20,326 bases of DNA, from the IMG/VR virus record IMGVR_UViG_3300017782_002169, positions 1 through 20,326 of that record; one strand, written 5' to 3'. Below are positions 1-15,061 of the stretch, in pieces. The stretch comes from a virus. Each line of letters opens with the position of its first letter. The first letter of the stretch is position 1. A program made the position numbers and the translations under genes. The notes beneath the pieces are model-generated. The model made no database searches and was not told where the DNA came from. It worked only from the letters and a program-made list of their open reading frames with translations.

Positions 1-234
1 GATATTAGATGAACCTATTTGGTTTATATCTAAAGTCATGCTAATACCATCAAGGTCAAGAGCAGTCATAGTACCTGATACAGCATTAGTTCCACCTATA
101 AGGTTAGAGCTTCCAAGTTGTTCTAGGTCTATAGATGCAGTGTTACCACTTTGGTCTACATAAATTTCGTTATCCGCGTATGTTTGCAATGCACTCAGCA
201 TCACAATCAGGCTCATTAAGTTTAGTTTCTTCAT
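1..234 (-). CDS. Secreted curlin-repeat-like protein (5' part, runs off the window)
   Basis: Seventy-eight codons are visible, open to the left edge. The first 20 residues form a clear Sec signal peptide (MKKLNLMSLIVMLSALQTYA, cleavage likely after QTYA). The mature part begins DNEIYVDQSGNTASIDLEQL and goes on with GSSNLIGG. Near the edge comes MTLDINQIGSSN. The spacing Q.G....I.L.Q.G..N is that of curlin repeats in CsgA/CsgB. ATG 234 is preferred because the basic n-region MKKL and the hydrophobic core begin there; the upstream GGAAAT is a weak ribosome site. It overlaps the CsgG-like gene by 65 bases in another frame. It is the likely cargo of the CsgG/CsgF-like pore, or an amyloid-like or beta-solenoid surface protein. 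Confidence 0.8.
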   Translation of the reverse strand, partial: MKKLNLMSLIVMLSALQTYADNEIYVDQSGNTASIDLEQLGSSNLIGGTNAVSGTMTALDLDGISMTLDINQIGSSNI

Positions 235-1042
235 ATTTCCAGTACCCTTTATCGTAACCGATAATAATAAGTTCCAATACAGCACCTTCTATAGCTTTCA
301 TTAAGGCTATAGTGGTACTTTCGTTGCGTGAAACACCAAATTCCACTTCAACTAATTCAGTACCCATTTCTATGAATTTAAACACATCTTGTGACTGACC
401 ATAGCTAAGTATTGTCTTGCTAGATAACACTTCTACTAATATTTCACCAGTAGCTACAGACACCATTCTAAGGCTTACTGTGATAGTATCTTCACGATAC
501 TGAACACTTGTGCCTATTCCTAAATATCTAGCACCTGCACCACCTGTGATTAGATTACTATCATACGACACAACAGCACCTTCAAGCAAGACACCTGCAA
601 ATAACAAGGGCATGATAGTTTTTTTATCTTGTAATTCTTCTCTTGTACTTCTTATAATTTGTCTTTCTTTTGTTAAGTTATCAAGACCAACTCTTTCTAC
701 AACTCTAAAGAATTCACCATTACTTGCATGTTTTAATGCTCTTATTAAAAGGTTGCTTGGTGCTTGGGTTATAGCACTAGAAAACAAAGCAAATTCACTG
801 TTACTCTTTCGTTGTCCTGTTTGGTCTGTAAAGGCTGTAGGATATACAGCTACTACTGGTTTTGTTAAGGGTGGTTGTACGTTTAATAAATCTTTTGATT
901 GTAAAGAAAAAATACTTGGTTTATCTTTTCTTTCTTTTTCAAATCTTAATTGTTGTGTGTCTTGTATAACACTAGTAACGGAACAACTAGAAAGTAAAAG
1001 AACCAATAGGTAATGTGATCTCTGTGATATTGCCATCTGCAT
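170..1042 (-). CDS. csgG: CsgG-like outer-membrane curli secretion channel (lipoprotein)
   Basis: A 290-residue protein close to the length of E. coli CsgG (277 as precursor). The signal sequence has a lipobox LLSSC with lipidated Cys20. CsgG-family hallmarks follow in order: KPVVAVYPTAFTDQTGQ (61-77), FFRVVERVGLDNLTKERQII (111-130), EGAVVSYDSNLITGGAGARY (154-173), then LGIGTSVQY, VSVATGEIL (194-202), SSKTILSYG (207-215) and VFKFIEMG. CsgG forms a nonameric beta-barrel pore that exports unfolded curli subunits. The pore-lining loop (about 78-95) differs from E. coli at several positions, while Phe87 may match the constriction Phe. The gene overlaps csgF by 56 bases and the curlin-like gene by 65. 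ATG 1036 is an alternative start; neither has a clear ribosome site. Confidence 0.93.
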   Translation of the reverse strand: MQMAISQRSHYLLVLLLSSCSVTSVIQDTQQLRFEKERKDKPSIFSLQSKDLLNVQPPLTKPVVAVYPTAFTDQTGQRKSNSEFALFSSAITQAPSNLLIRALKHASNGEFFRVVERVGLDNLTKERQIIRSTREELQDKKTIMPLLFAGVLLEGAVVSYDSNLITGGAGARYLGIGTSVQYREDTITVSLRMVSVATGEILVEVLSSKTILSYGQSQDVFKFIEMGTELVEVEFGVSRNESTTIALMKAIEGAVLELIIIGYDKGYWKYEETKLNEPDCDAECIANIRG

Positions 1043-1529
1043 CCGTTATTTTAAGTGTTATAAATTGTCCATCAGATGTGTATTCTATAATATTACCTTC
1101 TAGTTCAATAGTACCTGAATCACTTGGGGTTTCACCAAAAAGGTTTTCTACTAATTGTCTTGATAGTTGTGCATAGATACGAGATTCCAAGTTACGCATG
1201 AATCTAGCTAGTGTAGTGTTTTCTTTATCCCTTTCTATTTGTTCTTGTAAGGCTTTGATTTCCTCTTTGATTGTCATTTTTCTATTAAACTCTTGGTTCT
1301 CAATAGTCAAATAATGTGAACTAGTATTGACACCACTAAATGATGGGGATTTAAACTTGTGAACTATTTGGTCTGCTGTTAGATGTTGTACAAAGATACC
1401 ACAGAATAAAATCACACCAATTAGCATAACTAATTTTATCAACCTATCTTTTTCATAAGCTTCTTTTCTTTGTAAAAGTTCAGCTTTACTAGGCCTACCT
1501 CTTTTTCTTTTAATCTTTTCTTTGGTCAT
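987..1529 (-). CDS. csgF: CsgF-like curli assembly/transport protein with basic N-terminal extension
   Basis: A 180-residue protein. ATG 1529 is chosen because AGGCGG lies six bases upstream; the longer reading begins with TTG at 1547. Residues 1-31 are strongly basic with an AT-hook-like KRKRGRPSKAE. A hydrophobic segment follows at about 32-50 and a possible cleavage after VQHLTA (residue 52). The rest tracks CsgF. HKFKSPSFSGVNTSSHYLTI aligns with the CsgF mature N-terminus (F.FRNPNFGG....A.LL in E. coli). A helix LARFMRNLESRIYAQLSRQL follows, then IIEYTSDGQFITLKITDADG, equivalent to the C-terminal strands. In curli biogenesis CsgF plugs into the CsgG pore and couples secretion to nucleation. 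The next gene is CsgG-like. Confidence 0.82.
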   Translation of the reverse strand: MTKEKIKRKRGRPSKAELLQRKEAYEKDRLIKLVMLIGVILFCGIFVQHLTADQIVHKFKSPSFSGVNTSSHYLTIENQEFNRKMTIKEEIKALQEQIERDKENTTLARFMRNLESRIYAQLSRQLVENLFGETPSDSGTIELEGNIIEYTSDGQFITLKITDADGNITEITLPIGSFTF

Positions 1530-1860
1530 CTCTATCCGCCTTTGCAATTTTACTGCTATCTATGAGTTGTGGTACGCCAAGAATAGTTTTAATTAAAGTG
1601 TCTTGTCTTATGATTTCATTGTCTAAACTACGCACCCTATCAATTAATGCTACTAGTATTCCATGTTGTGAGTCAAGTTTTGTTCCCAGTCTTTCTTCTA
1701 TTGAAGCAATCTGTGATTCTACTTTTTCATCAACATTATCAAGTTTAGTTTCCATGCCATCTACAATACGCATGATAAGTTTGTATATAAACCAACCAAG
1801 ACCAACAGAAGCGGCTATTGGAAACCCAACTTCCTGTATAACCTTAATTGCCATATCCAT
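1510..1860 (-). CDS. Small membrane protein with coiled coil (holin-like)
   Basis: A 116-residue protein with one N-terminal membrane segment at about 12-31 (GFPIAASVGLGWFIYKLIMR). A long charged helix with heptad-like spacing follows (about 33-92: METKLDNVDEKVESQIASIE and onward), ending in a hydrophilic tail ADRDDQRKD. This layout resembles single-span BhlA/UviB-type holin-like proteins and other small phage membrane proteins at the end of tail operons. No endolysin or spanin is visible in the window. The start lies 15 bases after the preceding stop with no clear Shine-Dalgarno sequence, suggesting reinitiation. ATG 1854, two codons on, is an alternative. The holin role is only an inference from topology and position. 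Confidence 0.65.
   Translation of the reverse strand: MDMAIKVIQEVGFPIAASVGLGWFIYKLIMRIVDGMETKLDNVDEKVESQIASIEERLGTKLDSQHGILVALIDRVRSLDNEIIRQDTLIKTILGVPQLIDSSKIAKADRDDQRKD
1536..1541 (-). promoter_or_regulatory. Shine-Dalgarno-like AGGCGG deciding the CsgF-like start
   Basis: AGGCGG on the minus strand lies six bases before ATG 1529. It supports this start over TTG 1547, for which the site would fall inside the coding region. Confidence 0.6.
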
Positions 1861-2132: not shown

Positions 2133-2501
2133 TTAATTTGGTTCATTAGGGAATATAACATCATTAATAGATGTTGCATCACTATTACTTGCAGGTAAGT
2201 CTCTTAGTTCTTGTCTATATGTTGACCATTCTGTTTTTTTACTAGAAGACAAAGGACTATCAGGCATTTGCGTCCAATCTGATTGTGTAAGTAACGAATC
2301 TCTTTTAGACCTTAATACTTCTAATACATTATCAGTTCTTGTAACAGCTTCACCATCAATAATAATATGCTCATTAGATTGATAACCGCCTATAATAATT
2401 CCTTCGCCTTCTTGCAACCCCATTACATCTATAGGTGTATCAGTTGTAGTTGTATAAGAGATTTCTCCTGAATCTAAATTGTATATAGTAAAAGTGTTCA
2501 T
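2133..2501 (-). CDS. Tail fibre assembly chaperone-like (Phage_tail_APC)
   Basis: A 122-residue protein with the signature of the Phage_tail_APC group (PF16778) in its C-terminal half: LRSKRDSLLTQSDWTQMPDS (63-82), then a WSTYRQELRDLP helix (92-103), ending in a Pro/Asn-rich tail. The first 55 residues form a small beta domain (FTIYNLDSGEISYTTT, then EGIIIGGYQSNEHIIIDGEA). The group occurs immediately downstream of fibre or tip genes and is thought to help fibres fold or assemble. Here it starts in a one-base TAATG overlap with the giant tip gene, consistent with coupled, stoichiometric translation. Confidence 0.8.
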   Translation of the reverse strand: MNTFTIYNLDSGEISYTTTTDTPIDVMGLQEGEGIIIGGYQSNEHIIIDGEAVTRTDNVLEVLRSKRDSLLTQSDWTQMPDSPLSSSKKTEWSTYRQELRDLPASNSDATSINDVIFPNEPN

Positions 2502-5500
2502 TATCTTGTGTTGTCCATCATTACATTAAGTGACATTTGCGTATGGTTGTAACCACCTGAAAAATATACTCTCCAATAAACAGTTGACTGTGAAGTACTC
2601 AAAGTAGTTATTTGCCCTGTATATACATAAGTATATCCTCTATAAGTTCCTGCATTCCAAGATACATTCGTGTTTCCATTCGCATTAACCCAAGTTGAAC
2701 CGTTTAAAGAGTATTGAACTCTACCACCACTTACATCACCAAGTACTCCTGAAAAAATAGCAACATACCCTGCATTATCTCTAACTTGAGTGATTGTTAC
2801 ATTTACGAAGGAACTATTACTTCCTGTAAATGGATTTGTCCTTTGAACATATGATTGACCAGTTTTGGCTAATGGGAATTTAGTTCCTGCAGTTAGATGA
2901 CTAACGATGGTAGAACTTACATTATCAAAACTTTTTACATTTAAAAGATCAACATTAATTTCAGCACCAGTGATAGTGTCTGATGCTATCTCAGTAGCTG
3001 TTATAGTGTTAGCGGCTATTTTATCAGCTTCAATACTATCAGATTTTATTGTTATATCGCCCTGTTGAGTTATCTCTAATTCACCTGTGCTTAAATCAAC
3101 AACACCTAAAGTAGCACCTGTAATAATTCCATGCTGATGAGCAACAGAAGTAAGGAATGTGAGAGTATTATTTGCGGCATCAAAAGGAGAAATATCTCCA
3201 ACTGGTGAGCCTACAGTTGATTTAAAGTCTATATTTTTACTTGTGTACAATTCTCTTTGCATTGCACCAAGTTGTACCATCTCATCATCAGCTTCGTTTT
3301 GGCATACTAAGTGAAAAGGTGCAGTACCTATAAACTTAAATGGACCATCAGTGCTTAATGCTCCACCTGAACCTGAATCAGTACCCTCTGAAGAATACAA
3401 TGGAGCGGACTTAGTTGCGGCTCTATGGTCATAAGTATAAAGAACATCATTTTGACTATCTAAAACTTTAATAGTATTTGTTTTATAAGAAACTAATCTA
3501 AAGTTTGTTATATCTTCTTCATTGTAAATGTAATAATCAGATAGCGATTCTATAGGGACAGCAAATTCAGCGTCACCCCCTGCACCATCTGCTGTGCCAT
3601 AAGCAAAGATTCCATTTTTACCTGAATTGTCTCTATAGTAAGTTGCGTTTCCATTAGTTGCGGTTGTTATAGATGAGGTAACAGAGCTTTCTGTATATCC
3701 AAAACTAGCAGGTGAAAATGTAGAAGAACCTATTAACTCCATACCTGCAGGTGATAGTAAAGTATAGTCACCACCACCTTGTGGGATTGATTCAGCACAA
3801 ATTAATCCATCTGCTTTTACTATAAAATATTGAGTACCTGAAGATGTGCCACCACCATGCACATCTTCTTGAAATACAAATCCTGAACCTGCATTAATAG
3901 TTGTCGTATAAATAAAATCACCTGAAGAAGAACTAGAAGCATCAACTGGAGCAGTAGACTTTCTATAAAACTCAACAGTAACTTGTGCATATGGTGAATA
4001 GACATAAATATCTATTGGTTGATATCTATCAACATATAAACCTAAAACCCTACCTGAATAATTAGTATTCATTGTAGGTGCTGAAGGATTAGTTGCCATC
4101 ACAGATATTGGTTTATCTGCAGTGATCTCTGAAAAAGCTGAAAGGTCAGCCGCTAGTATTTGATAGACTGTTCCATCTGCTTGTGCATTAGGAATCTTAA
4201 TAACACCATCAACAAAAACATCAGTTCCATCAACATAAGGAACTATTAAATGTATTTGTCCTGAATGACCACCCACAATATATTTTGCACCTGCATGATG
4301 TCCTTTAGATACCATGTAATCTCTAGTATCTAAATATTGATGTGCTTCTGATAAACCATCTACGACATAGTTTTGATAGCTAGAGCCTGTACCCATAACC
4401 AAAGGACTAGCTACTATTTTTGTTATGCCATTAGTTGTTAAAGTACCAACTGCATTTATATTATTAGAATTCAAATCCAAGTTAGCATTTGTAATATCTA
4501 TGTCTTGTGTTCCTGAACCTGACTGTAGTGTCATTCTAGTGGTTTCACCTGCCGCAACACCATTATTAGACATTAATACTAAGTCACCTGAGGTATGTCT
4601 ATTAGTTACATAATGATGTCCACCTAATTCATAAGCAAAGTTTCTGTAATTAGCGTCTGTTCCACTACCCATGAAAGCTATGGGTGTTCCATTACCTACT
4701 AAATATATTGATGAAGCAAAATTTGCAACACCTGCTGAATCTAATGTTAAAGCAGGTGTGCCTTCTACATCTAAACGTATTGAAGACGCTTCAATTCTTA
4801 AATCTTTCCATGCACTACCATCCCAATCTCTTGACCTAATTCTTGCTTGTTCTTCTGAACCAGTATCTCTATAGTCAATTACTAATGCTGAATTTACACC
4901 TGATGGATTTGACCTAGTACCTGCATCTAAAACAAGCCTACCATCTAAATTTAACTCTGATACTGGACTTTGAACACCAATTCCAACATCTCCTGCATCA
5001 TTAAACACTACTGTAGATGTTGTTGCTCCTGAATTATAAAAACGTAAACTACCTGCACTATCTACACCAAGTTGCCAAGTTTCTGCTCCTGATGCTTCTT
5101 CAATTGCAATTGCATGGTCATTTGTACCTGACTTTACTATTAAGGGAAAGTTTGTTGTGGTTTCTATGTTGCCTATTTCAGCACTATTTGCAGTAACATC
5201 TCTTGTACTGTTTACAAAAGTATCATTATTAGCACCCATTTTTATGGTATTAATATATAAATTGTCCCACACTCTATTAGTTAAACCTAAATTTGAAATA
5301 GCAGTTACCTCAGGTCTCCATGCACCGTTTGCATTATTAGCTCCATCCCATCTAACTGCTTTTGCTTCACTTGAAGGATTTAATACACTAATGATTATTT
5401 GCCCTGAAGCATCCTGTGAGTTTCTTATAAATGCAGTAGGGTCTGTAAAATTTATGGTATCGGTGACACTAATACCTGTTGATGTGGTTTCTAAAACAGC

Positions 5501-8500
5501 ACTACCTGCATAATAAAGTTCTACTTTTCCTGTAGAGTCTGTTACCTTTATGGCACTTCTTGGAGTTGTATTTCTTTGTATTAATAAATCATCAGAAGAA
5601 CGGATTATAGAATTAGAACCATCATTTAATATTAGTAACTCACCTAAATCACCTGCTCTAATAATATTACCTAAAGCATCTAAATTTGATCTCAGTGTAA
5701 CAGCAGCAGTACCAGATCCTAAATACAACTTAGATTCTGAAAAGTCTCTGTATATAAAGTTTTTTGTTGTATCTGTATTATCTCTTACTATAAAATCTAC
5801 ATCATCGGCACGAATAGTGACACCGCCACCACCATGAATATATTTGCCTGTATCCATGTATAGACCATTGTCATTTAGTTGCATGATAGAATCAGTCTGT
5901 ACAGCAGTACCACTTGTAACGCTTGATTTAAGCTCAAAATACATAATTGCATTAGAACCACTATCTGTATTAACTTCTATACGAGCAGAGTTACCATCTT
6001 GTTCAGGTACACCACCTAAATGATTCCAAGTTACGTTAGCATTTCCATAACCATCATTAATAGTTAAAGCAACACCACCACTATTAGCACCTGATTGAAC
6101 ATGACTTGTAGCTGTAAGCTGTCCTGTTAAATTTAATACAGTGCTATCATAAGTAAGCCCTGATTCACCATTTAATGTATTTGTAACATCACCACCAGTT
6201 ATAATTCTGTTATTTGCATTGTTGTTAATAGTAATAGCATTCGCACCTGCACTTATACCATCTAGCTTAGTGCCATCTGTAGCTATGTCTCTACCATCAA
6301 CAGTACCTGTAACAGATATATTTCCCGAATCCTGAAATGTAACTGAAGCTGTAGTGCTTCCACTATTATAAAAACCTAAATCTCCATCAGCATCTACACC
6401 TAACTGCCAGTTTTCATTTGCACCTACAGGCTCATAAATAGTTATTGCATGAGAGTCTGAATCTGAACGTATAGCTAAAACGCCATCAATAGACGAAGGA
6501 ATATCTCCAATACTCAAACTTTCAGCACTAACACCTGCTATATTGGTAAGGTTTCTAGCACTTGTAATAACCTCCTGCGTTCCAATGCTATAAGATGTAG
6601 CAAAAGCATTAGCACTAGCATCAAATACTTTTGTTCCTTCTCCATCAACTAATCCAGTACCATCAGCAGAAGCACCAACACGAACTGAATCATGGTCAAC
6701 AAGTAAACCCATGCTAAATGAAATATTATTTCCTGCTGTTCCAATAGGTGCTGAATTTAGTGATATAGCACCATCAACACCATGACCTTGCATAGATATT
6801 TTACCAACACCATCACCTGTTACTGCATATTGACCACTTCCTGTTCCTGAATAACCAATAGAAATAGAATAGTTACCATTACCATCATTAACATTGTGTC
6901 TGATTGAATAATCTCCACCACTATCTTTAAAAGCTAAAACATTATCCCCTGTACCACCATCCAAACGAGCATCTAAACGAAGCTCTCCATCTATATTTAC
7001 AGTAGAACTAAAAGTAGAAGCACCACTACTTGAAATAGCACCACTATTAATAGTTCCTGCAAAAGTTACACCACCTGTTTGGTATAAAGTTATATCAGTT
7101 TCACCTTGTCTTCCTATTCTTAAGTCATCTCCCTCAACATCTATTCTGTAGAAATCATAAGTGGTATCGTTTGCGGCAGTTGTATATAACCTTAATTCAC
7201 CACCTTCGTTACCTGTAGCCGCACCATAGGCACTAATAGTTCCACTAACAGCATCATTTTCACCAACATCTAAAGCAGAACCCTTAACATAAACATTGCC
7301 TTGAAAAGTTGAGTTTTGTGTTCCATCTATTGTTAATGCATCTGAACTATCAGTTCTTAATTTAATACTAGCTACTTCATCAGTTTCAATAATAAGGTTT
7401 CCAGTACCTCTGTGATAAATTGCTGAACTTGTATTAGCACCACTATTGTTTCTTATAAGCCTAAGACCATAGTCTGTATAGGTGCTATCACCTACGAGAT
7501 CAATATAAGCGTAATGATTACTAGATGTGTTTGTACCTACGTTTATGAATGTGTCTGCTGTGCCATTATGATTGACATTTATTGTGCCTGTAGCAGTTAT
7601 ATTTGCTGTACTATTAACAGCTCCTGAAGAGATACTTCCAGTTACTTCAATTCCATCTGTAGTTGTATTGAGCTTCTCTGCTCCATAAAAGAAAAGTTGT
7701 GCCTGTCCAGTAGAACCATCTGCCCTAAAGTATGTAGTTACTCCCCCTGAACCATTATCACTTTTTATATAAATGTCTTTAGCAAGAAAATCATTTTGTA
7801 TAACTAAATCACAATTAGTGACATTTTGAATAATAGAATTAGTGCCATTATGATAAAGTCTTAAATCGTTAGAATCTCCTAGTGATATTCTGCTATTGTC
7901 ACTCCATTTTGTGTATAACGCACCTGAACCTGCCATACTCCCATCTAATCTGAAATATATAGCAGAGGCACCTGTGCCATCATCTGACCAAAATTTGATA
8001 TCGCTATCATCTGCAAAGTTCTTAATATCAATATCGCCTGTGTAATTTGATATGTTGGCTGAACTCCCAGTGTGTTGTAATCTTAAATCGTCATCTGAGC
8101 CTAATATCAATAAAGCACTATCAGGAAAATCTAAACCATGCGAGAAGTTAAACCTATCACTGGTTGTAGCCCAAGTTAAGGTCGCATCATTACCTGCACT
8201 TACAGCATCTTGTATAGTAATACCTGCACCATTTGCATTAGCTGAAGTATCACCAGTTCCATAATTAAGCGTTATGTTCTTATCTTTTACATCAAGATTT
8301 GCAGTATCTATTGTGGTAGTAGTACCCTGTACTTCCAAATTTCCTTGAATGACTACATTGTTAGTAAAGGTTCTTGCACCATCAATACTAGAAGCTAGTG
8401 CCAAAGTAAATGAAGCATCACCTGAAGTAAAGTTTGCACCACCAGTTAGACCACCACTAGAAGCAGTTGTTATTTGTACTCCTGTTATATCGCCTTCAGG

Positions 8501-11500
8501 TGGTACTGTAGAACCTGTGCCATTATCAACATAGAAACCATCACCACTAGGGTCTGTTACAGATATAACTCTAGGTGCTGTTGATGTTACATTATTAGAA
8601 ACAGCATTATAATTAGGTGTTCCAGTAGTTTGACCATTAACTGTATCAGTAGATGACACTGTAGCTTTAATTCTATGCGTTGTTCCTGAACTTGTCCCTG
8701 TTAAAGTTAGACCTGTATGAGATAATGTAGTTCTTCCATCACTATCAACACAACCAACATTTGTTGTTGGCGTACCTAAAGATGTTGTTGTTGAACCAAG
8801 ATATAAAGTTCCACCTTGACCTGATATAAACAATAATTGTACGTTACTATTTATTTTATATTCATCTGCATCAGGTGAGGTGTCTGGGTTTAGTCTATCG
8901 TTTACCCTTCTAAATTCGTCTGTAACAACTGTGTTATAAGAAGAACCACCATCACTTGAATGTTCTATCGTTAAAGTAAAGTTTGCAGGTACTTCTTTTT
9001 CTGCATTATCTATAGCATCATTAGAACTTGCTTCATCTGCAAAACCACCAAAATTTGAATCAATACTTACTGTTACATTTACATCTGTATTTGCTGTAAC
9101 TGTTATTTCTTCGTATTCACTATCGCTATCTGTGGTTGTTGATACAGTTGTAACTTTAGTATTAGAGCTACGCCCTATTTGTGATAAAGCTGAATCACTA
9201 AATCCAGTTTCAGAATCAAAATAAACTGTTCCATCTGTTAATTTTAAAACTAGGTTTCTTGCTATAGCCTTTCCATCTTTATCTACAGCAAAACTTGCGT
9301 TTGATGGCGATTCACTTCCTGACCAAAATCTATAATCACCAGTACCTGACATCTTAGCAATCTGACCACTACCTGCTACACCTGCTGTAAATGTTTTAGT
9401 TGTTTGTACTTCACCATCACCTAGAACTTTAAAAGGTGCATTAGCAAAAGTGCCATTACCTAAATAGATACCATTAGTATCTGCTGTAAATATATTAGTT
9501 CCTGAACCTGCTATAAATGTCCCATTAATACTAGCACCAGTTGCATCTAAAACACCTGCTGTATTAACAGTAAAAGCACCTGAACCTATATTAATTTGAC
9601 CTGCTGTAATACTTCCTAAATTAGCTGATAAAGAAGATAAGCTATTCACTATTAATTTATCAGCAGTAATAGAATTAGTTACAAATAGATCTCCCTCTAT
9701 TTTTGCAGGTAATCCACCTGCAGGATTCATATATAAAGATTGAACTTGTTTATCTGTTATAGCTTTTGTGTAAAATCTTACATCTGATAATTTTCCAATA
9801 AATACATCATTAGTATTAACAATAGAACTCTCTGTATTACAACCAAGCACAACTGGTCTTGAATTAGTTGTATAAGCAATATTAGTATCTGTAGCTCTTA
9901 ATACGCCATCAAGATATAGTTTGGCACTTGTAGTACCATTTACAACTAAAGCCAAGTGATGCCATTCGTTTACAGAAGCACCATTATAAGAAACATTTTC
10001 ACCATCTGTATATAATCTTACAGATTGATTTCCTGTATCATTTTGGTCTATCGCTAAAGACCAAAAATCTGAAGCATCTCTACCAATTATTCTTGCACCA
10101 GCTACTCCTGATTCAGTTGTTGATTTGAACCACAAAGCGACAGTATAGTCACCTGTGGTTGATTGCCATGTTGTAGCTTGTGCGTTGTTTAAAAGTGTTA
10201 TACCTGTATCCGCACCATTTACATAAGATTGACCATTTGGACTATCAGTAGCAAAGCTTCCATTACTACCAGTTATAACACCTGTTACATTACTAACAAC
10301 ATCAATAATATCAGCAGGGGTTGTATCGTTAGGGTCACTAAATCCATTTAAAGGGAAGTAGTGTAATAAGCCATCAACTGGGAAATCAGGATTTATGACA
10401 CTAGTGACTGTTAGATTATTACCACTTCCGTCTTGTAGTATTCCACCACCTAAAGTAAGAGTAAGGTTTTGTATATTTGCTTCTACTACATCAAGGGTCG
10501 TTGCTGTTATATTTCCATCAACACTTAAACTTGTACCATTCCAATAGACTTTGTCTTTAAGAGAAAAATTACCATTATCGTCAACATAAAATGCAGTATT
10601 ACTATTATTAACAGTTCCTGTGCCTACATATAATTTATCACTAGCTAAATTAATACCACCTATAGTTCCACTTTCTGCTTTTAGAACACCTGCTTCAGTT
10701 ACGCTAAAGGGTGCAGAACTGAATGTTGCATGACCTAGCTGTATACCAACACCTGTTTCTGCTTTAAATACGTTGTTGCCTGTACCTACAACAATATTGT
10801 TTGTTATCGTTGCACTGGTTGTTAATAGATTTAATGTGGTTATAAAGTCTGTATCAACCCTATCTGCTGATATGGTTTGTGCAATAATCTTTGTACCTGC
10901 AAGAGTACCATCTACAACCAAGTCACCAGTTGTGAAATTATTGATCTCTACAAAAGTTGAACCATTCCATTTATAAGCCTTTGATACTTTAGGAGTAACA
11001 CTGGTATTAACCATGATTAAAATATCATCTGTTAATGGTGTTCTGCCATATTCGGTATTAAATTGTGATGATGTTAAGGCTGTAGTTGTGTTGCCTTCCT
11101 TATGGAAATAACCTGAGAAATCAGGTAAATCAATATCACCTGCATCTACTAGCGTAAAGCTACCTGTTGTTGTGCTTGTAAAAGTAGAATGTGTGCCTGA
11201 ATGATTTATGGCTCTTACTGCAAAATGATAAGTAGTTCCTGCTGTCAATCCATCTTCTAAACCAAAAGTAAGCTTCTGTTTTTCGCTAGGCTCTGATGTA
11301 ATTGTTGAAACTAAATAAGTGTCATCTGTTGGTGTAAAGTTAGATGTATGTCTGTAAACCTTTACTGCTCTTAAATCACTATTACTTGGAGCATCCCATT
11401 CTAAACCTATGACAAGAGCCTTGCCTGATGTTGCAGAAAGGTTAGATGGTGCTGAAGGTGCTGAAGGTAATCCTGTATTTACACTTTGTTCGCCAGTGTT

Positions 11501-13555
11501 TGAACTAAATACATTATTACTAGAGAAGTGTCTAGCTACTACATAATAATTAGAGTTAGACATCAAATTAGGTATTACTGCCTTTGTCTTTCCTTTACCT
11601 ACTAAAATAGAACCAATATATGTTCCTGAAGATGTGCCATATAATATTTCTGTACCTTGTATTAAATCATCAGGGTTGTTTGTCCAACTTGCATCTATGT
11701 TTACTTTACTTGTAGTTGAATCTAATTGTAAATCTACTGTAAGAGATAAATTAGTTGGTGCTGTTACGCTAAAACTACCTGTAGGAACGCTAGAGCCTTC
11801 GTCTATGGGGCTTGTATAAGAAGAAGAAGCAAATGCATATACAGAAGAATCAATCTCTTTAATGTCAAGTCTAGTAGCCAACATTGGAACATCATTTTGC
11901 TCTATAACTTCTAGATTTGTGCTTAAAACTTCAAAGACTTTGTTTGTGTAACCTAATCTTTCATTGGTTAAGTAAACCCAATCAAAAGGTTGCAATTGCA
12001 TATAAGCGATATTACATAAGACTGATAATGCTACCTCCTGTCTGCTGTGTAATATTGCTGTTCTTTGTAACCTTTGTGCCATTGTTGTGTTGTCAGTAAA
12101 TGGCAACTGTATTTCTAAAGTTTTTCTATAATTAGCCTGTGATTCTCCTGTTGGCGTATCTTCACTTAAAAATGTATTACTGGTGTCAGGATTTACTGTA
12201 GTTTCTGTAGGTGAATCAGTTGCAACATAATTATTATTACCATCAACATAGACTGCTTTTACTGTATTAAAGGTTTCACCACTAGTCTGTTTAGTTGATA
12301 TAGAGATCGGTGCTAATAAATTATCATCTGTAATTGTCATTTCAGGTGTAACAGTAGCACCTGCAAACATAACAAACTTACCATTTATATAAGACATTTT
12401 ACCTGCACAAGAACTAAGCAACCCTTCAATAACACCTGCACCATCTGCAGTCATATTAGTAATTCCATTAGCTTTATATGAGACTTCATTAAACGTTAGT
12501 GTCACACCATCAGCGATAGTTACTGCTGAAGATAAGGTTACAACTAAACCTGTTCTTTTGATTACTGTTACAGTGCCTGTAATTCCTGTTCCTGTAACTG
12601 TTTGTCCTATATCTATTAGTGTATTAGTGACTGCTGTATCAATTGTTACTGTAGTAGAACTGCTTATAGCACCATTAACTGTAGCTGTTGTTATTGCACC
12701 TGCGGCAGTTTCACAAGTATTAGCGGCTGATGCAAATCCACCCAGTGCTGTAGTGTCATTGATCTCACTAGATGTAGCTTTTAAACCATATGTTGTATTG
12801 GTTAGATAATCTCTTACACATAGAGCAGGGTTAGTTCCAATATCCTTACCAGTGCTATCAGTGTATGCTGTTTCACCACTTCTAGGGTCATAAACCTTTT
12901 TACCTTTTATAACAAAAGATAAAGGTGGTATTCCACCACCAAAGGCTTCTGAATCAAAAACAAATTGAATTAGCATGTAAGCCAAGCCTGTGAACTTGTC
13001 ATTATTATCTAAAGATGTGTTACTGGTGACTGTTGAATCAGCACTTGTCTGTGAGCCATCTAAAAATTTATATCTTAGTAATTTACCACTACCAAAATTG
13101 TTTTCATTATCTGTATTAATAAATTTACTATTTGTGGCAACTTGAAAACCACCACTTGATGTTGTTGTAAGCTTTACATCATTGACCAATACTTCTTCCA
13201 AACTCTCTACTTCGTGTCCTGCCAGTACGACTATCATTGATAGCTTGTAGTTATCTGTTCCTGAAGTTTCTATATGGGTGATTGTTCCACCAACTCTAGC
13301 TTTACCATATATGATTTGTCTAGGTGATGTAGCTGTTCTTGTTGCTACCTTTGTACCAAAGTTTTCAGAAGTAGCATTCGTACCTTTTGACATCAGACCA
13401 CCAACTAAGGCACTTAATGCTGATGCAGTTGCTACTTGTAAAGCAGTCAATCCTGTAAGAGCTAATGTTGTTGTACTTAATAAAAATGCTGTACCTGTTA
13501 CTACTAAAAATGTTACAACAAATACTGTTACTGCCGCTTTGAGTGCTTTAGCCAT
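2501..13555 (-). CDS. Giant tail-tip / receptor-binding protein (J-like hub fused to fibre)
   Basis: A 3684-residue single frame. Residues 8-53 are hydrophobic, as in many J-like proteins. Residues 70-590 resemble the lambda J hub (RQIIYGKARVGG at 79-90; GGIPPLSFVIKGKKVYD at 207-223; LLSSCAGKMSYINGKFVMFAG near 380-399), interrupted by a small beta insert at about 284-356. Two FnIII-like domains lie at 597-697 and 700-800. A LamG-like lectin fold is at about 1058-1278, from LLHYFPLNG to GKLSDVRFYTKA. Residues 1660-3050 hold marine-fibre repeats (for example IQGNLEVQGTTTTIDTANLD at 1736-1755, DLRLYHNGTNSIIQN at 1897-1911, DVGIGVQSP at 2856-2864). The end (3051-3684) is probably receptor-facing, with a repeated IxADKIAANTIT stretch at 3507-3530. 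No C-terminal S74 chaperone is seen. GGAGA precedes the ATG by seven bases. Confidence 0.9.
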   Translation of the reverse strand: MAKALKAAVTVFVVTFLVVTGTAFLLSTTTLALTGLTALQVATASALSALVGGLMSKGTNATSENFGTKVATRTATSPRQIIYGKARVGGTITHIETSGTDNYKLSMIVVLAGHEVESLEEVLVNDVKLTTTSSGGFQVATNSKFINTDNENNFGSGKLLRYKFLDGSQTSADSTVTSNTSLDNNDKFTGLAYMLIQFVFDSEAFGGGIPPLSFVIKGKKVYDPRSGETAYTDSTGKDIGTNPALCVRDYLTNTTYGLKATSSEINDTTALGGFASAANTCETAAGAITTATVNGAISSSTTVTIDTAVTNTLIDIGQTVTGTGITGTVTVIKRTGLVVTLSSAVTIADGVTLTFNEVSYKANGITNMTADGAGVIEGLLSSCAGKMSYINGKFVMFAGATVTPEMTITDDNLLAPISISTKQTSGETFNTVKAVYVDGNNNYVATDSPTETTVNPDTSNTFLSEDTPTGESQANYRKTLEIQLPFTDNTTMAQRLQRTAILHSRQEVALSVLCNIAYMQLQPFDWVYLTNERLGYTNKVFEVLSTNLEVIEQNDVPMLATRLDIKEIDSSVYAFASSSYTSPIDEGSSVPTGSFSVTAPTNLSLTVDLQLDSTTSKVNIDASWTNNPDDLIQGTEILYGTSSGTYIGSILVGKGKTKAVIPNLMSNSNYYVVARHFSSNNVFSSNTGEQSVNTGLPSAPSAPSNLSATSGKALVIGLEWDAPSNSDLRAVKVYRHTSNFTPTDDTYLVSTITSEPSEKQKLTFGLEDGLTAGTTYHFAVRAINHSGTHSTFTSTTTGSFTLVDAGDIDLPDFSGYFHKEGNTTTALTSSQFNTEYGRTPLTDDILIMVNTSVTPKVSKAYKWNGSTFVEINNFTTGDLVVDGTLAGTKIIAQTISADRVDTDFITTLNLLTTSATITNNIVVGTGNNVFKAETGVGIQLGHATFSSAPFSVTEAGVLKAESGTIGGINLASDKLYVGTGTVNNSNTAFYVDDNGNFSLKDKVYWNGTSLSVDGNITATTLDVVEANIQNLTLTLGGGILQDGSGNNLTVTSVINPDFPVDGLLHYFPLNGFSDPNDTTPADIIDVVSNVTGVITGSNGSFATDSPNGQSYVNGADTGITLLNNAQATTWQSTTGDYTVALWFKSTTESGVAGARIIGRDASDFWSLAIDQNDTGNQSVRLYTDGENVSYNGASVNEWHHLALVVNGTTSAKLYLDGVLRATDTNIAYTTNSRPVVLGCNTESSIVNTNDVFIGKLSDVRFYTKAITDKQVQSLYMNPAGGLPAKIEGDLFVTNSITADKLIVNSLSSLSANLGSITAGQINIGSGAFTVNTAGVLDATGASINGTFIAGSGTNIFTADTNGIYLGNGTFANAPFKVLGDGEVQTTKTFTAGVAGSGQIAKMSGTGDYRFWSGSESPSNASFAVDKDGKAIARNLVLKLTDGTVYFDSETGFSDSALSQIGRSSNTKVTTVSTTTDSDSEYEEITVTANTDVNVTVSIDSNFGGFADEASSNDAIDNAEKEVPANFTLTIEHSSDGGSSYNTVVTDEFRRVNDRLNPDTSPDADEYKINSNVQLLFISGQGGTLYLGSTTTSLGTPTTNVGCVDSDGRTTLSHTGLTLTGTSSGTTHRIKATVSSTDTVNGQTTGTPNYNAVSNNVTSTAPRVISVTDPSGDGFYVDNGTGSTVPPEGDITGVQITTASSGGLTGGANFTSGDASFTLALASSIDGARTFTNNVVIQGNLEVQGTTTTIDTANLDVKDKNITLNYGTGDTSANANGAGITIQDAVSAGNDATLTWATTSDRFNFSHGLDFPDSALLILGSDDDLRLQHTGSSANISNYTGDIDIKNFADDSDIKFWSDDGTGASAIYFRLDGSMAGSGALYTKWSDNSRISLGDSNDLRLYHNGTNSIIQNVTNCDLVIQNDFLAKDIYIKSDNGSGGVTTYFRADGSTGQAQLFFYGAEKLNTTTDGIEVTGSISSGAVNSTANITATGTINVNHNGTADTFINVGTNTSSNHYAYIDLVGDSTYTDYGLRLIRNNSGANTSSAIYHRGTGNLIIETDEVASIKLRTDSSDALTIDGTQNSTFQGNVYVKGSALDVGENDAVSGTISAYGAATGNEGGELRLYTTAANDTTYDFYRIDVEGDDLRIGRQGETDITLYQTGGVTFAGTINSGAISSSGASTFSSTVNIDGELRLDARLDGGTGDNVLAFKDSGGDYSIRHNVNDGNGNYSISIGYSGTGSGQYAVTGDGVGKISMQGHGVDGAISLNSAPIGTAGNNISFSMGLLVDHDSVRVGASADGTGLVDGEGTKVFDASANAFATSYSIGTQEVITSARNLTNIAGVSAESLSIGDIPSSIDGVLAIRSDSDSHAITIYEPVGANENWQLGVDADGDLGFYNSGSTTASVTFQDSGNISVTGTVDGRDIATDGTKLDGISAGANAITINNNANNRIITGGDVTNTLNGESGLTYDSTVLNLTGQLTATSHVQSGANSGGVALTINDGYGNANVTWNHLGGVPEQDGNSARIEVNTDSGSNAIMYFELKSSVTSGTAVQTDSIMQLNDNGLYMDTGKYIHGGGGVTIRADDVDFIVRDNTDTTKNFIYRDFSESKLYLGSGTAAVTLRSNLDALGNIIRAGDLGELLILNDGSNSIIRSSDDLLIQRNTTPRSAIKVTDSTGKVELYYAGSAVLETTSTGISVTDTINFTDPTAFIRNSQDASGQIIISVLNPSSEAKAVRWDGANNANGAWRPEVTAISNLGLTNRVWDNLYINTIKMGANNDTFVNSTRDVTANSAEIGNIETTTNFPLIVKSGTNDHAIAIEEASGAETWQLGVDSAGSLRFYNSGATTSTVVFNDAGDVGIGVQSPVSELNLDGRLVLDAGTRSNPSGVNSALVIDYRDTGSEEQARIRSRDWDGSAWKDLRIEASSIRLDVEGTPALTLDSAGVANFASSIYLVGNGTPIAFMGSGTDANYRNFAYELGGHHYVTNRHTSGDLVLMSNNGVAAGETTRMTLQSGSGTQDIDITNANLDLNSNNINAVGTLTTNGITKIVASPLVMGTGSSYQNYVVDGLSEAHQYLDTRDYMVSKGHHAGAKYIVGGHSGQIHLIVPYVDGTDVFVDGVIKIPNAQADGTVYQILAADLSAFSEITADKPISVMATNPSAPTMNTNYSGRVLGLYVDRYQPIDIYVYSPYAQVTVEFYRKSTAPVDASSSSSGDFIYTTTINAGSGFVFQEDVHGGGTSSGTQYFIVKADGLICAESIPQGGGDYTLLSPAGMELIGSSTFSPASFGYTESSVTSSITTATNGNATYYRDNSGKNGIFAYGTADGAGGDAEFAVPIESLSDYYIYNEEDITNFRLVSYKTNTIKVLDSQNDVLYTYDHRAATKSAPLYSSEGTDSGSGGALSTDGPFKFIGTAPFHLVCQNEADDEMVQLGAMQRELYTSKNIDFKSTVGSPVGDISPFDAANNTLTFLTSVAHQHGIITGATLGVVDLSTGELEITQQGDITIKSDSIEADKIAANTITATEIASDTITGAEINVDLLNVKSFDNVSSTIVSHLTAGTKFPLAKTGQSYVQRTNPFTGSNSSFVNVTITQVRDNAGYVAIFSGVLGDVSGGRVQYSLNGSTWVNANGNTNVSWNAGTYRGYTYVYTGQITTLSTSQSTVYWRVYFSGGYNHTQMSLNVMMDNTR
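4991..6481 (-). repeat. Pair of diverged 52-53 residue repeats in the fibre region
   Basis: Residues 2359-2411 and 2804-2855 of the tip protein are copies of one unit; the DNA lies at 6323-6481 and 4991-5146. Both read HAI.I.E..GA..WQLGVD..G.L.FYNSG.TT..V.F.D.G. The second copy leads into VGIGVQSP. The arrangement suggests internal duplication of a fibre module. Confidence 0.8.
7712..8101 (-). repeat. Tandem fibre repeats of the 'LRLxHxGxxxxI' type
   Basis: Residues 1819-1873 and 1893-1948 of the tip protein align as diverged tandem copies. They share D.LRL.H.G....I.N, then D..IK.....G.....YFR.DGS. A third, looser copy is around residues 2639-2697 (LLILNDGSNSIIRSSDDLLI, then GKVELYYAGSAVLETTSTGI). 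These units are common in marine phage fibres and probably form beta-rich trimeric shaft segments. Confidence 0.75.
9722..10384 (-). other. LamG/concanavalin-like domain inside the giant tip protein
   Basis: This encodes residues 1058-1278 of the tip protein. The opening LLHYFPLNGFSDPNDTTPAD, the core DYTVALWFKST and FWSLAID, the NEWHHLALVVNGTTSAKLYL strand and the closing GKLSDVRFYTKAITDKQVQS follow the LamG-like lectin pattern. A carbohydrate-binding role is inferred from the fold. Confidence 0.85.
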
Positions 13556-13967
13556 TAGACACTCTCCATACAGATATTATGTTTACATTCTGTTTAGCTT
13601 CAACCATGTCATCTGAAGGTGTTAAAACTTTAAAACCATCTGAAATACCAACTAATTCTGATTCTTCTTTATAAACCACTAAATCACCTTTTTGCATAAA
13701 TGCTTTGTCTATTTTTTGTAAACCTTTTGCTTTACAAGCCTTTTCAATACTTTTAGAAAGAGTTTTACCATATTCTTTTATTGATCTCATAGCTTCTTCT
13801 TCGTTTTCCCATTTAAGTTTTTCAGGTATTAAATCCTCACCTGTCATAGCTTTAATTACAGCATTAGCAAATTTGCAACAATCCCAAGAACCCCATTTAA
13901 AAGGCACAAACCTGTGCTTGGTTATAAATAAGTCAAATTCTATATTCCAGTCTGTTTTCTTAATCAT
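13548..13967 (-). CDS. NlpC/P60-like (DUF6950-like) tail tip assembly protein
   Basis: A 139-residue protein in the position of the tail peptidase between hub and tip genes. Residues 20-35 (FVPFKWGSWDCCKFAN) match the DUF6950/NlpC-like pattern 'fxWGxxDCcxfaad' around the usual nucleophilic Cys (Cys30, Cys31). The C-terminal part has QKGDLVVYKEESELVGISDG and ends in an SVWRV strand. No His follows the cysteines, so the Cys-His pair of active NlpC/P60 enzymes is not visible. The protein may be structural or only weakly enzymatic. It overlaps the hub stop by one base and the giant tip gene by eight bases. Confidence 0.7.
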   Translation of the reverse strand: MIKKTDWNIEFDLFITKHRFVPFKWGSWDCCKFANAVIKAMTGEDLIPEKLKWENEEEAMRSIKEYGKTLSKSIEKACKAKGLQKIDKAFMQKGDLVVYKEESELVGISDGFKVLTPSDDMVEAKQNVNIISVWRVSNG

Positions 13968-15061
13968 TATTTTTGATGAACTGCATTCCTATCAATTCCA
14001 CTATCTTTTTTATTATGAACTAATATATCATTAGCAAAATAGTTATTGTGTTTATATATTTCAATTAAATTATAAGTCGGTATGTCTGTTTTATTATCTA
14101 TAACTTCTATGCTTGTTATTTCTAAAGAATCTGCATTTTTATCAAATAATCTATCTCCAACTTCCAATTTATCTACATCAAGCCCATGCAGTTCTTTTGT
14201 TGCTGATGGGTTTATACTTACCCAACCTTTTTCAATGCAATACAAAGGGTGACACTGCGTTGTATGTAGTGAATTATCTTTATAGTTGATGATATAAGTT
14301 TGTTTATTAGTTGTTTTGTGTAATTTTTGTACGCTTGATTTAACTAATAAATTATTGTCTATGTCATAAGACATAATTTCATCAAGCATTTTTATATCTT
14401 CAATATTTTTAGTTGTACCATCGCCCATAAGAATTTGTGTACCTGCAACAAAACAACCACCTCCACCACCACCAGTGTTAGATGATGATCTCCCCCATAT
14501 AATCTCTTTATCTTGTAAAGACTGTACTCTGTTAAAACAATTATCAGTAGAATCTATATACTGTTGTGATTCTTTTGTATATCTAAGATTTGATGGTCTT
14601 TCTAAATCTATAAGTCTATTTTCAGCATCAACAGTAATAGTAGAACCATTAGGGTCATCATTTATTACCATAGATTGCATACGACCTTTAAACAAAGTCA
14701 TAGTACCCACAACAGTGTCTGTACCACCTGAAAGATATCCTAAATAAACAGTTATAAATCTGTTTTGATAGTTTTCTGTAAGTGCTAAGTCAAGAACAGT
14801 TGCATCCATACCTGCTAAAGAAACAGACAAACCACTGGACTTTAATTCTAAGGTATCTTCTATGTTTGATATAGACAATAAAGTGCCAACACCAAGATAT
14901 GTTGCACCATCAATCGTGAGATCATAATCACCTGACCAAAGTCTAATTGTTTCTGTGTCAAATTCAGCTTTGACTGCTAAGAATAATACTTGATGGTCTG
15001 CTTCAAGGTAACTTTGTATTGATGTATCAATCCCACCCCTGTTTGGCACAAAATGAGACAT
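13967..15061 (-). CDS. Tail hub protein (DUF2163-like) with C-terminal Hint domain
   Basis: A 364-residue two-part protein. Residues 1-190 look like a DUF2163-type tail hub as in GTA clusters: YLEADHQVLFLAVKAEFD, then TIRLWSGDYDLTIDGATYLG, a strand-rich core with TLFKGRMQSM, and an end NCFNRVQSLQDKEIIWG. A serine and glycine linker with six consecutive glycines (197-202) follows. Next comes a Hint domain from Cys203 to Asn350, and finally 14 residues ending VHQK. The Hint part shows CFVAGTQILMGDGTTKNIED, a TxxH block B (Thr268, His271) and a terminal LVHN. The stop of the distal tail gene abuts this ATG, with GAGG nine bases upstream. The hub part sits below the tail tube and binds the tip protein. 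The role of the Hint part is inferred self-processing. Confidence 0.8.
   Translation of the reverse strand: MSHFVPNRGGIDTSIQSYLEADHQVLFLAVKAEFDTETIRLWSGDYDLTIDGATYLGVGTLLSISNIEDTLELKSSGLSVSLAGMDATVLDLALTENYQNRFITVYLGYLSGGTDTVVGTMTLFKGRMQSMVINDDPNGSTITVDAENRLIDLERPSNLRYTKESQQYIDSTDNCFNRVQSLQDKEIIWGRSSSNTGGGGGGCFVAGTQILMGDGTTKNIEDIKMLDEIMSYDIDNNLLVKSSVQKLHKTTNKQTYIINYKDNSLHTTQCHPLYCIEKGWVSINPSATKELHGLDVDKLEVGDRLFDKNADSLEITSIEVIDNKTDIPTYNLIEIYKHNNYFANDILVHNKKDSGIDRNAVHQK
14012..14455 (-). other. Hint / bacterial intein-like domain within the tail hub gene
   Basis: This stretch encodes 148 residues (203-350 of the hub protein). It has the catalytic Cys first, splicing block A (FVAGTQILMGDG), block B (HTTQCHPLYC with Thr268 and His271), an F-like block (IPTYNLIEIYKHNNYFAND) and the C-terminal His349-Asn350. 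There is no homing endonuclease insertion and no LAGLIDADG motif. The residue after Asn is Lys, not Cys, Ser or Thr. That is unlike a canonical intein and like Hint or bacterial intein-like domains that cleave or ligate proteins without standard splicing. Confidence 0.85.

Follow-up and report, generated by a model that had tools for sequence, protein, structure and literature searches.

The open frame that leaves the left edge of the window (the whole analysed stretch of 20,326 bases, which is also the entire IMG/VR record, classed linear and with no sequence left of position 1) is, judging by its sequence, the beginning of a genuine secreted curli-like protein of 244 residues, and the gene is a member of an already described phage type VIII secretion module. 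Its signal peptide, a predicted solenoid of G-x-x-N repeats, linkage to csgF and csgG, and purifying selection come from sequence or prediction, and most likely it is a curli-like subunit, produced late in the infection and exported to the cell surface.

The cut-off gene and its complete protein

The frame lies on the minus strand, starts with the ATG at 234 and reaches the window edge without a stop, as a sequence-only reading of this DNA had described. The features of this region are:

1..234, minus strand: curlin-like secreted protein gene, 5' part (78 codons); open frame, Curlin_rpt E=0.0015, matches the first 78 aa of the protein of contig L003
175..234, minus strand: predicted signal peptide MKKLNLMSLIVMLSALQTYA, cleavage before DNEIYV; read from the sequence
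142..159, minus strand: first, partial curlin-type motif VDQSGN, residues 26-31; from the sequence
103..120, minus strand: Q-x-G-x-x-N motif QLGSSN, residues 39-44; motif count
4..21, minus strand: Q-x-G-x-x-N motif QIGSSN, residues 72-77; motif count
170..1042, minus strand: csgG, curli outer-membrane export pore, lipoprotein; Pfam CsgG E=1e-47
987..1547, minus strand, likely start ATG 1529: csgF, pore-associated curli assembly factor; Pfam CsgF E=4.3e-17
1510..1860, minus strand: 116-aa membrane-anchored coiled-coil protein upstream of csgF; PHROG 18771 E=2.4e-15

The csgG gene ends at 170 in a different reading frame, which bears out the 65-bp overlap given in that reading, and the hydrophobic N-terminal signal that it had named as a signal peptide is present in the fragment; the junction [AG][DS][NS]E[IV] occurs in 146 of 157 relatives. 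The curlin-style spacing that it had claimed holds for QLGSSN and QIGSSN, both full Q-x-G-x-x-N motifs, but not for VDQSG, an incomplete motif (Q-x-G-N). Across 43 relatives, Q28 and G30 of VDQSGN, Q39, G41 and N44 of QLGSSN, and G74 and N77 of QIGSSN are invariant. Two Q-x-G-x-x-N motifs in 58 mature residues compare with 0.036 expected (P = 0.00025; at least two motifs in 0.025% of 20,000 composition-preserving shuffles of the mature part). The Pfam Curlin_rpt match of the 78-aa fragment (E = 0.0015) scored 18.9 bits, just below the 20.7-bit cut-off.

Contig L003 overlaps the window over 4,209 bp with 18 mismatches and supplies the continuation of the cut gene. Its protein starts with exactly the 78 residues of the window, no stop follows soon past the edge, and the complete gene (L003:3976-4710, stop at L003:4710) has 244 codons. 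The expected continuation of the repeats was found in part: there is no third Q-x-G-x-x-N, but G-x-x-N repeats persist to near the end, at residues 41, 47, 74, 97, 125, 151, 173 and 202 (8 versus 2.5 expected, P about 0.001), with a spacing of 22-33 residues if residue 47 is omitted. Likewise, the 157 relatives mostly have 7-8 G-x-x-N per protein and only 1-2 Q-x-G-x-x-N. Q-x-G-x-x-N in most repeats, as in curlins, is therefore absent, since Q is kept in two rungs only. A C-terminal cysteine pair occurs in 156 of the 157 relatives, and the positions invariant among the 43 include both cysteines and the G and N of most turns. Curlin_rpt was matched by 38 of the 43 relatives at E<=10 (best 8e-5); the full-length 244-aa query had no match in Pfam, and its sequence shows no glycine-rich secretion signal of the N22 type.

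With a dN/dS of 0.05-0.16, the curlin-like gene is evidently under strong purifying selection. The overlap of the frame with csgG and its truncation at the contig end would suit a chance open reading frame with a meaningless curlin resemblance, but at least 573 relatives, this dN/dS and a constant gene order refute that explanation and leave it next to no probability.

Predicted fold and known relatives

In an AlphaFold2 model based on 43 natural relatives, strands flank each G-x-x-N turn (pLDDT 81, pTM 0.76), and a second subfamily, about 53% identical, gave the same pattern (pLDDT 80, pTM 0.77), so that a strand-turn-strand beta-solenoid is predicted for both. Foldseek against viral models returned as its only significant matches the top three, all "Curlin associated" phage proteins (E 1e-6 to 6e-5). 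By hhalign, the protein aligned over 178 columns (prob 97%) with the PA14-curlin protein of phage HTVC008M, which has canonical curlin repeats; the E-value of this alignment needs caution, both proteins being rich in G, S and N. Against the PDB, Foldseek had no match under E 0.001 and a profile search with the curlin-like protein gave noise only. Structural alignment to the PDB found generic beta-helix proteins, with SufB/SufD on top and adhesins among the structural neighbours; CsgA is absent among the matches listed, which does not count against a curlin fold. The beta-solenoid candidate of the earlier reading is thus favoured by the models, Foldseek and hhalign, while its Q ladder stops after two rungs. 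A curlin-related, phage-encoded beta-solenoid protein is the prediction supported by the full-length gene in L003, AlphaFold2, Foldseek, hhalign and the neighbouring csgF and csgG.

The protein resembles E. coli CsgA and CsgB in being secreted (here predicted), in its strand, G-x-x-N turn, strand repeats, and in having csgF and csgG as neighbours, but differs in its 22-33-residue rungs with loops and in carrying Q in two rungs only. The terminal cysteine pair and irregular loops seen here are unlike E. coli CsgA, and E. coli curli has CsgE and CsgC, which are not found here. In the Caulobacter holdfast anchor HfaA/HfaB, a CsgG-family exporter works with a curlin-like partner. This pairing and a faint HfaB profile match are shared with the present system; unlike HfaA/HfaB, however, CsgF is present here, and the HfaB match is far below cut-off.

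Phage curli genes have been reported before. In pelagimyophages, csgF and csgG were described with the subunit not identified (PMC7029224), and in phage Melnitz, csgF and csgG were described with the subunit noted as absent and a lysis role proposed (PMC9004378). CsgA/B, FecR and cyclase genes were described in Pelagibacter podo- and myophages, with homologue transcripts in metatranscriptomes (PMC9599517). The gene is therefore not new as such, given the latter module and HTVC008M AGE60350 ("curlin-associated protein / CsgB"). This homologue lies right after csgG and overlaps it, as here, but is about 36% identical over 72% and lacks the C-terminal cysteine pair. HTVC008M also has a second curlin protein, with a PA14 domain, whereas one curlin gene is present here; this "hypothetical protein" (L083:6768-8090, HTVC008M 10638-11963) joins a PA14 domain to canonical curlin repeats. 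The module of PMC9599517 shares with ours the order CsgF, CsgG, CsgA/B-like, FecR and adenylate cyclase, a single preceding gene, and the absence of CsgE. It differs in that the curlin gene is single here, and in that an endolysin (with Rz/Rz1 in sipho-type contigs) lies downstream, which PMC9599517 does not mention.

The secretion module and the proposed role of its presumed cargo

Both the CsgG pore and its CsgF partner of type VIII secretion were recognised by profile, and neither csgE nor csgC was recognised among the module's genes. The csgG product matches PDB CsgG structures at E=8e-43 over residues 48-272, across the pore domain, and its PRK15184 match (6.6e-48) contrasts with the faint HfaB match (8e-4, far below the HfaB cut-off). 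CsgF has an N-terminal extension that is basic and a single TM/signal segment; its segment FK[SN]PSF, the part that in the E. coli protein inserts into CsgG, is kept in 130 of 145 relatives. The 116-aa coiled-coil protein has a weak holin profile (PHROG 1296 "holin", E=0.0011) and is possibly the gene called histidine kinase in PMC9599517.

The order and strand of six genes (coiled-coil membrane protein, CsgF, CsgG, curlin, FecR, CHASE2-adenylate/guanylate cyclase) are identical in 124/124 complete loci. The window itself covers the module only to the start of the curlin gene; what lies downstream in its phage, the lysis genes described below included, is taken from relatives and from L003, which extends as far as the cyclase start. 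The start of the FecR-domain gene overlaps the curlin gene. In the CsgG-selected loci, the distances of CsgF, CsgG, curlin and FecR co-vary (rho 0.79-0.90), much more weakly with those of the cyclase or the coiled-coil gene. Curlin-CsgG co-evolution was dropped as proof of cargo pairing, the rank correlation varying with locus selection (0.83 versus 0.22).

Several smaller features of the module were also seen. In the clade of the window, a C-terminal extension of csgG overlaps the curlin signal peptide (170-234); in other clades (e.g., L032) the csgG-curlin overlap is just a few bases. The gap between FecR and cyclase is a variable insertion site (L014:4864-6546, L085:1694-2857 and L155:7744-8283), and some of the inserts resemble DNA methyltransferases by eye. 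L018, L029 and L035 have CsgF and cyclase about 80-87% identical to the window type, yet carry different CsgG-curlin-FecR alleles (curlin 91% versus about 51%), thus suggesting allele exchange inside the module.

An endolysin gene lies within 3 kb downstream of the module in 88 of the 98 loci with enough sequence, accompanied in 54 of those 88 by Rz and Rz1 spanins, and tail-fibre or tail-spike genes lie upstream in the relatives examined. In sipho-type contigs, the module sits between tail-fibre genes and the Rz/Rz1/endolysin genes. The frequency of the nearby endolysin suggests that the module may be expressed late.

The curlin-like protein is probably a curli-like fibre subunit, the presumed cargo of phage type VIII secretion, deployed at the surface late in infection. 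We infer its export, assembly, timing and benefit along the following lines. Late in infection, the protein would cross the inner membrane by Sec, leave through the phage CsgG-CsgF pore and assemble outside the doomed cell, on its surface, into a curli-like solenoid or fibre. There the structure could change cell-cell or cell-phage contact, for example by holding sibling cells near released virions or by protecting the cell against other phages. Export or assembly would probably be assisted or controlled by the FecR-domain and CHASE2-cyclase proteins. We count in favour of this the full-length L003 gene, the order kept in all 124 loci, the Curlin_rpt matches of 38 of 43 relatives, hhalign, the solenoid models and Foldseek, and further the conservation of CsgG and CsgF, dN/dS, the co-varying distances, the downstream endolysin and the published metatranscripts. 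Against a curli reading stand Q in two rungs only, the lack of a full-length Pfam match and of an N22-like signal, csgE and csgC not being recognised, the cysteine pair and irregular loops, and the absence of clumping in cultures infected with Melnitz (PMC9004378), a phage that is itself reported to lack the curlin gene.

Some of these points would fit as well a secreted solenoid that is monomeric and non-amyloid, leaves through CsgG without polymerising and acts as an adhesin or shield, nearer to the use of HfaA/HfaB than to curli fibres; this reading differs from a fibre subunit in the last step only, i.e., assembly. The lost Q ladder, irregular loops and conserved terminal cysteine pair, the adhesins and beta-helix proteins among the structural neighbours, and the faint HfaB match of CsgG (E=8e-4) point that way. 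But CsgF, which serves fibre assembly in curli, is present, and CsgG matches PRK15184 far more strongly than HfaB, so that we regard a monomeric product as rather unlikely. The neighbouring lysis genes raise another alternative, in which the gated CsgG/CsgF pore helps to depolarise or open the envelope as a lysis-timing device and the curlin-like protein is its periplasmic plug or partner, not a fibre. The sipho-type position between tail-fibre and Rz/Rz1/endolysin genes, the endolysin after the module in 88 of 98 loci, the weak holin profile of the upstream 116-aa protein and the lysis role proposed for CsgGF of Melnitz (PMC9004378) are consistent with it. The contigs nevertheless have their own Rz/Rz1 and endolysin, which would make the pore redundant, the neighbourhood may reflect late transcription only, and Melnitz was reported without a curlin gene whereas here the gene is always present and conserved; a lysis-timing function is accordingly quite improbable. 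A virion structural protein was rejected, since the signal peptide and the location in a type VIII secretion cassette speak against it.

Phage type, host and distribution

The phage of the window has lambda-type tape measure, tail-tip and central-fibre genes, and no contractile-tail sheath gene was found in 26 long records; a contractile tail was therefore rejected, and the phage is, by its gene content, long-tailed and non-contractile. Its tape measure is common to 8 of the 26 long module-bearing contigs, and for others the tail-spike and virion proteins found were of another type. The window and these 8 of 26 long relatives are thus lambda-type long-tailed phages, unlike the podo- and myophages of PMC9599517. 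Among isolates, Pelagibacter phage HTVC202P gives the highest-scoring tape measure match (47% over 30%), whereas other structural genes best match Roseobacter, cyanobacterial, rhizobial and other phages, not HTVC202P. A search of 12 related records, several of them >36 kb, yielded no integrase, and a lysogenic conversion cargo was rejected on that ground, although the records may be fragments.

A CsgG-based scan gave 292 viral contigs, and at least 573 viral contigs encode the curlin-like protein. In 84,980 prokaryote genomes there were 5 curlin loci, all in metagenome bins, by a DNA-pattern search that is insensitive to distant homologues, such that distant bacterial relatives may exist; a search of plasmids found no curlin-like gene. 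Of the five loci (L084, L085/L086, L087 and L088), the flanks of L084 and L088 were checked gene by gene; these two are probably misbinned phage, because a terminase small subunit and a tail fibre are encoded there. A bacterial origin through a close homologue was rejected, with five bin loci only and phage genes beside the module in L084 and L088. By these searches, the gene appears almost wholly confined to phage sequence.

In the literature searched, with subscription papers and preprints incompletely covered, we found neither the module in lambda-type long-tailed phages nor a paper placing it beside a lysis cassette; its occurrence in such phages and its position between tail-fibre genes and endolysin thus appear to be new. 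Phage curli genes are abundant in the ocean and have had no demonstrated role, and one cultured-phage report argued that the fibre subunit is absent. Here the subunit gene is regularly present, conserved, nearly phage-confined and lysis-linked in a further phage type, so that a single cloned cassette would suffice to test the fibre hypothesis directly. More tentatively, and as a possibility somewhat short of even, the protein may represent a phage-specific, cysteine-capped solenoid family, diverged from bacterial curlins and carried as cargo by a type VIII secretion system that phages own. This system would have spread to all three tail types and be timed with lysis, such that the dying cell would build an extracellular structure for the phage.

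A csgG match also occurs at OR851715.1:295-942, in a record of 1,499 bases named "Salmonella phage S.Kent 1-2-1" that may be host sequence. Elsewhere in the window, 2501-13555 encodes a tail-tip/central fibre protein of 3,684 aa that takes up more than half of the window and contains fibronectin type III as well as concanavalin-like lectin domains. The tail protein at 13967-15061 (PHROG 2048) has a C-terminal Hint/intein-like domain at about residues 203-350 (Pfam Intein_splicing 1.7e-5, Hom_end_hint 1.3e-6, AXH 3.6e-15). Only 5 among 71 related loci have a match to this region, and the homologue in G002 has 212 aa and no such domain. In the protein of the window, the residue that follows the terminal HN is K, not C/S/T.
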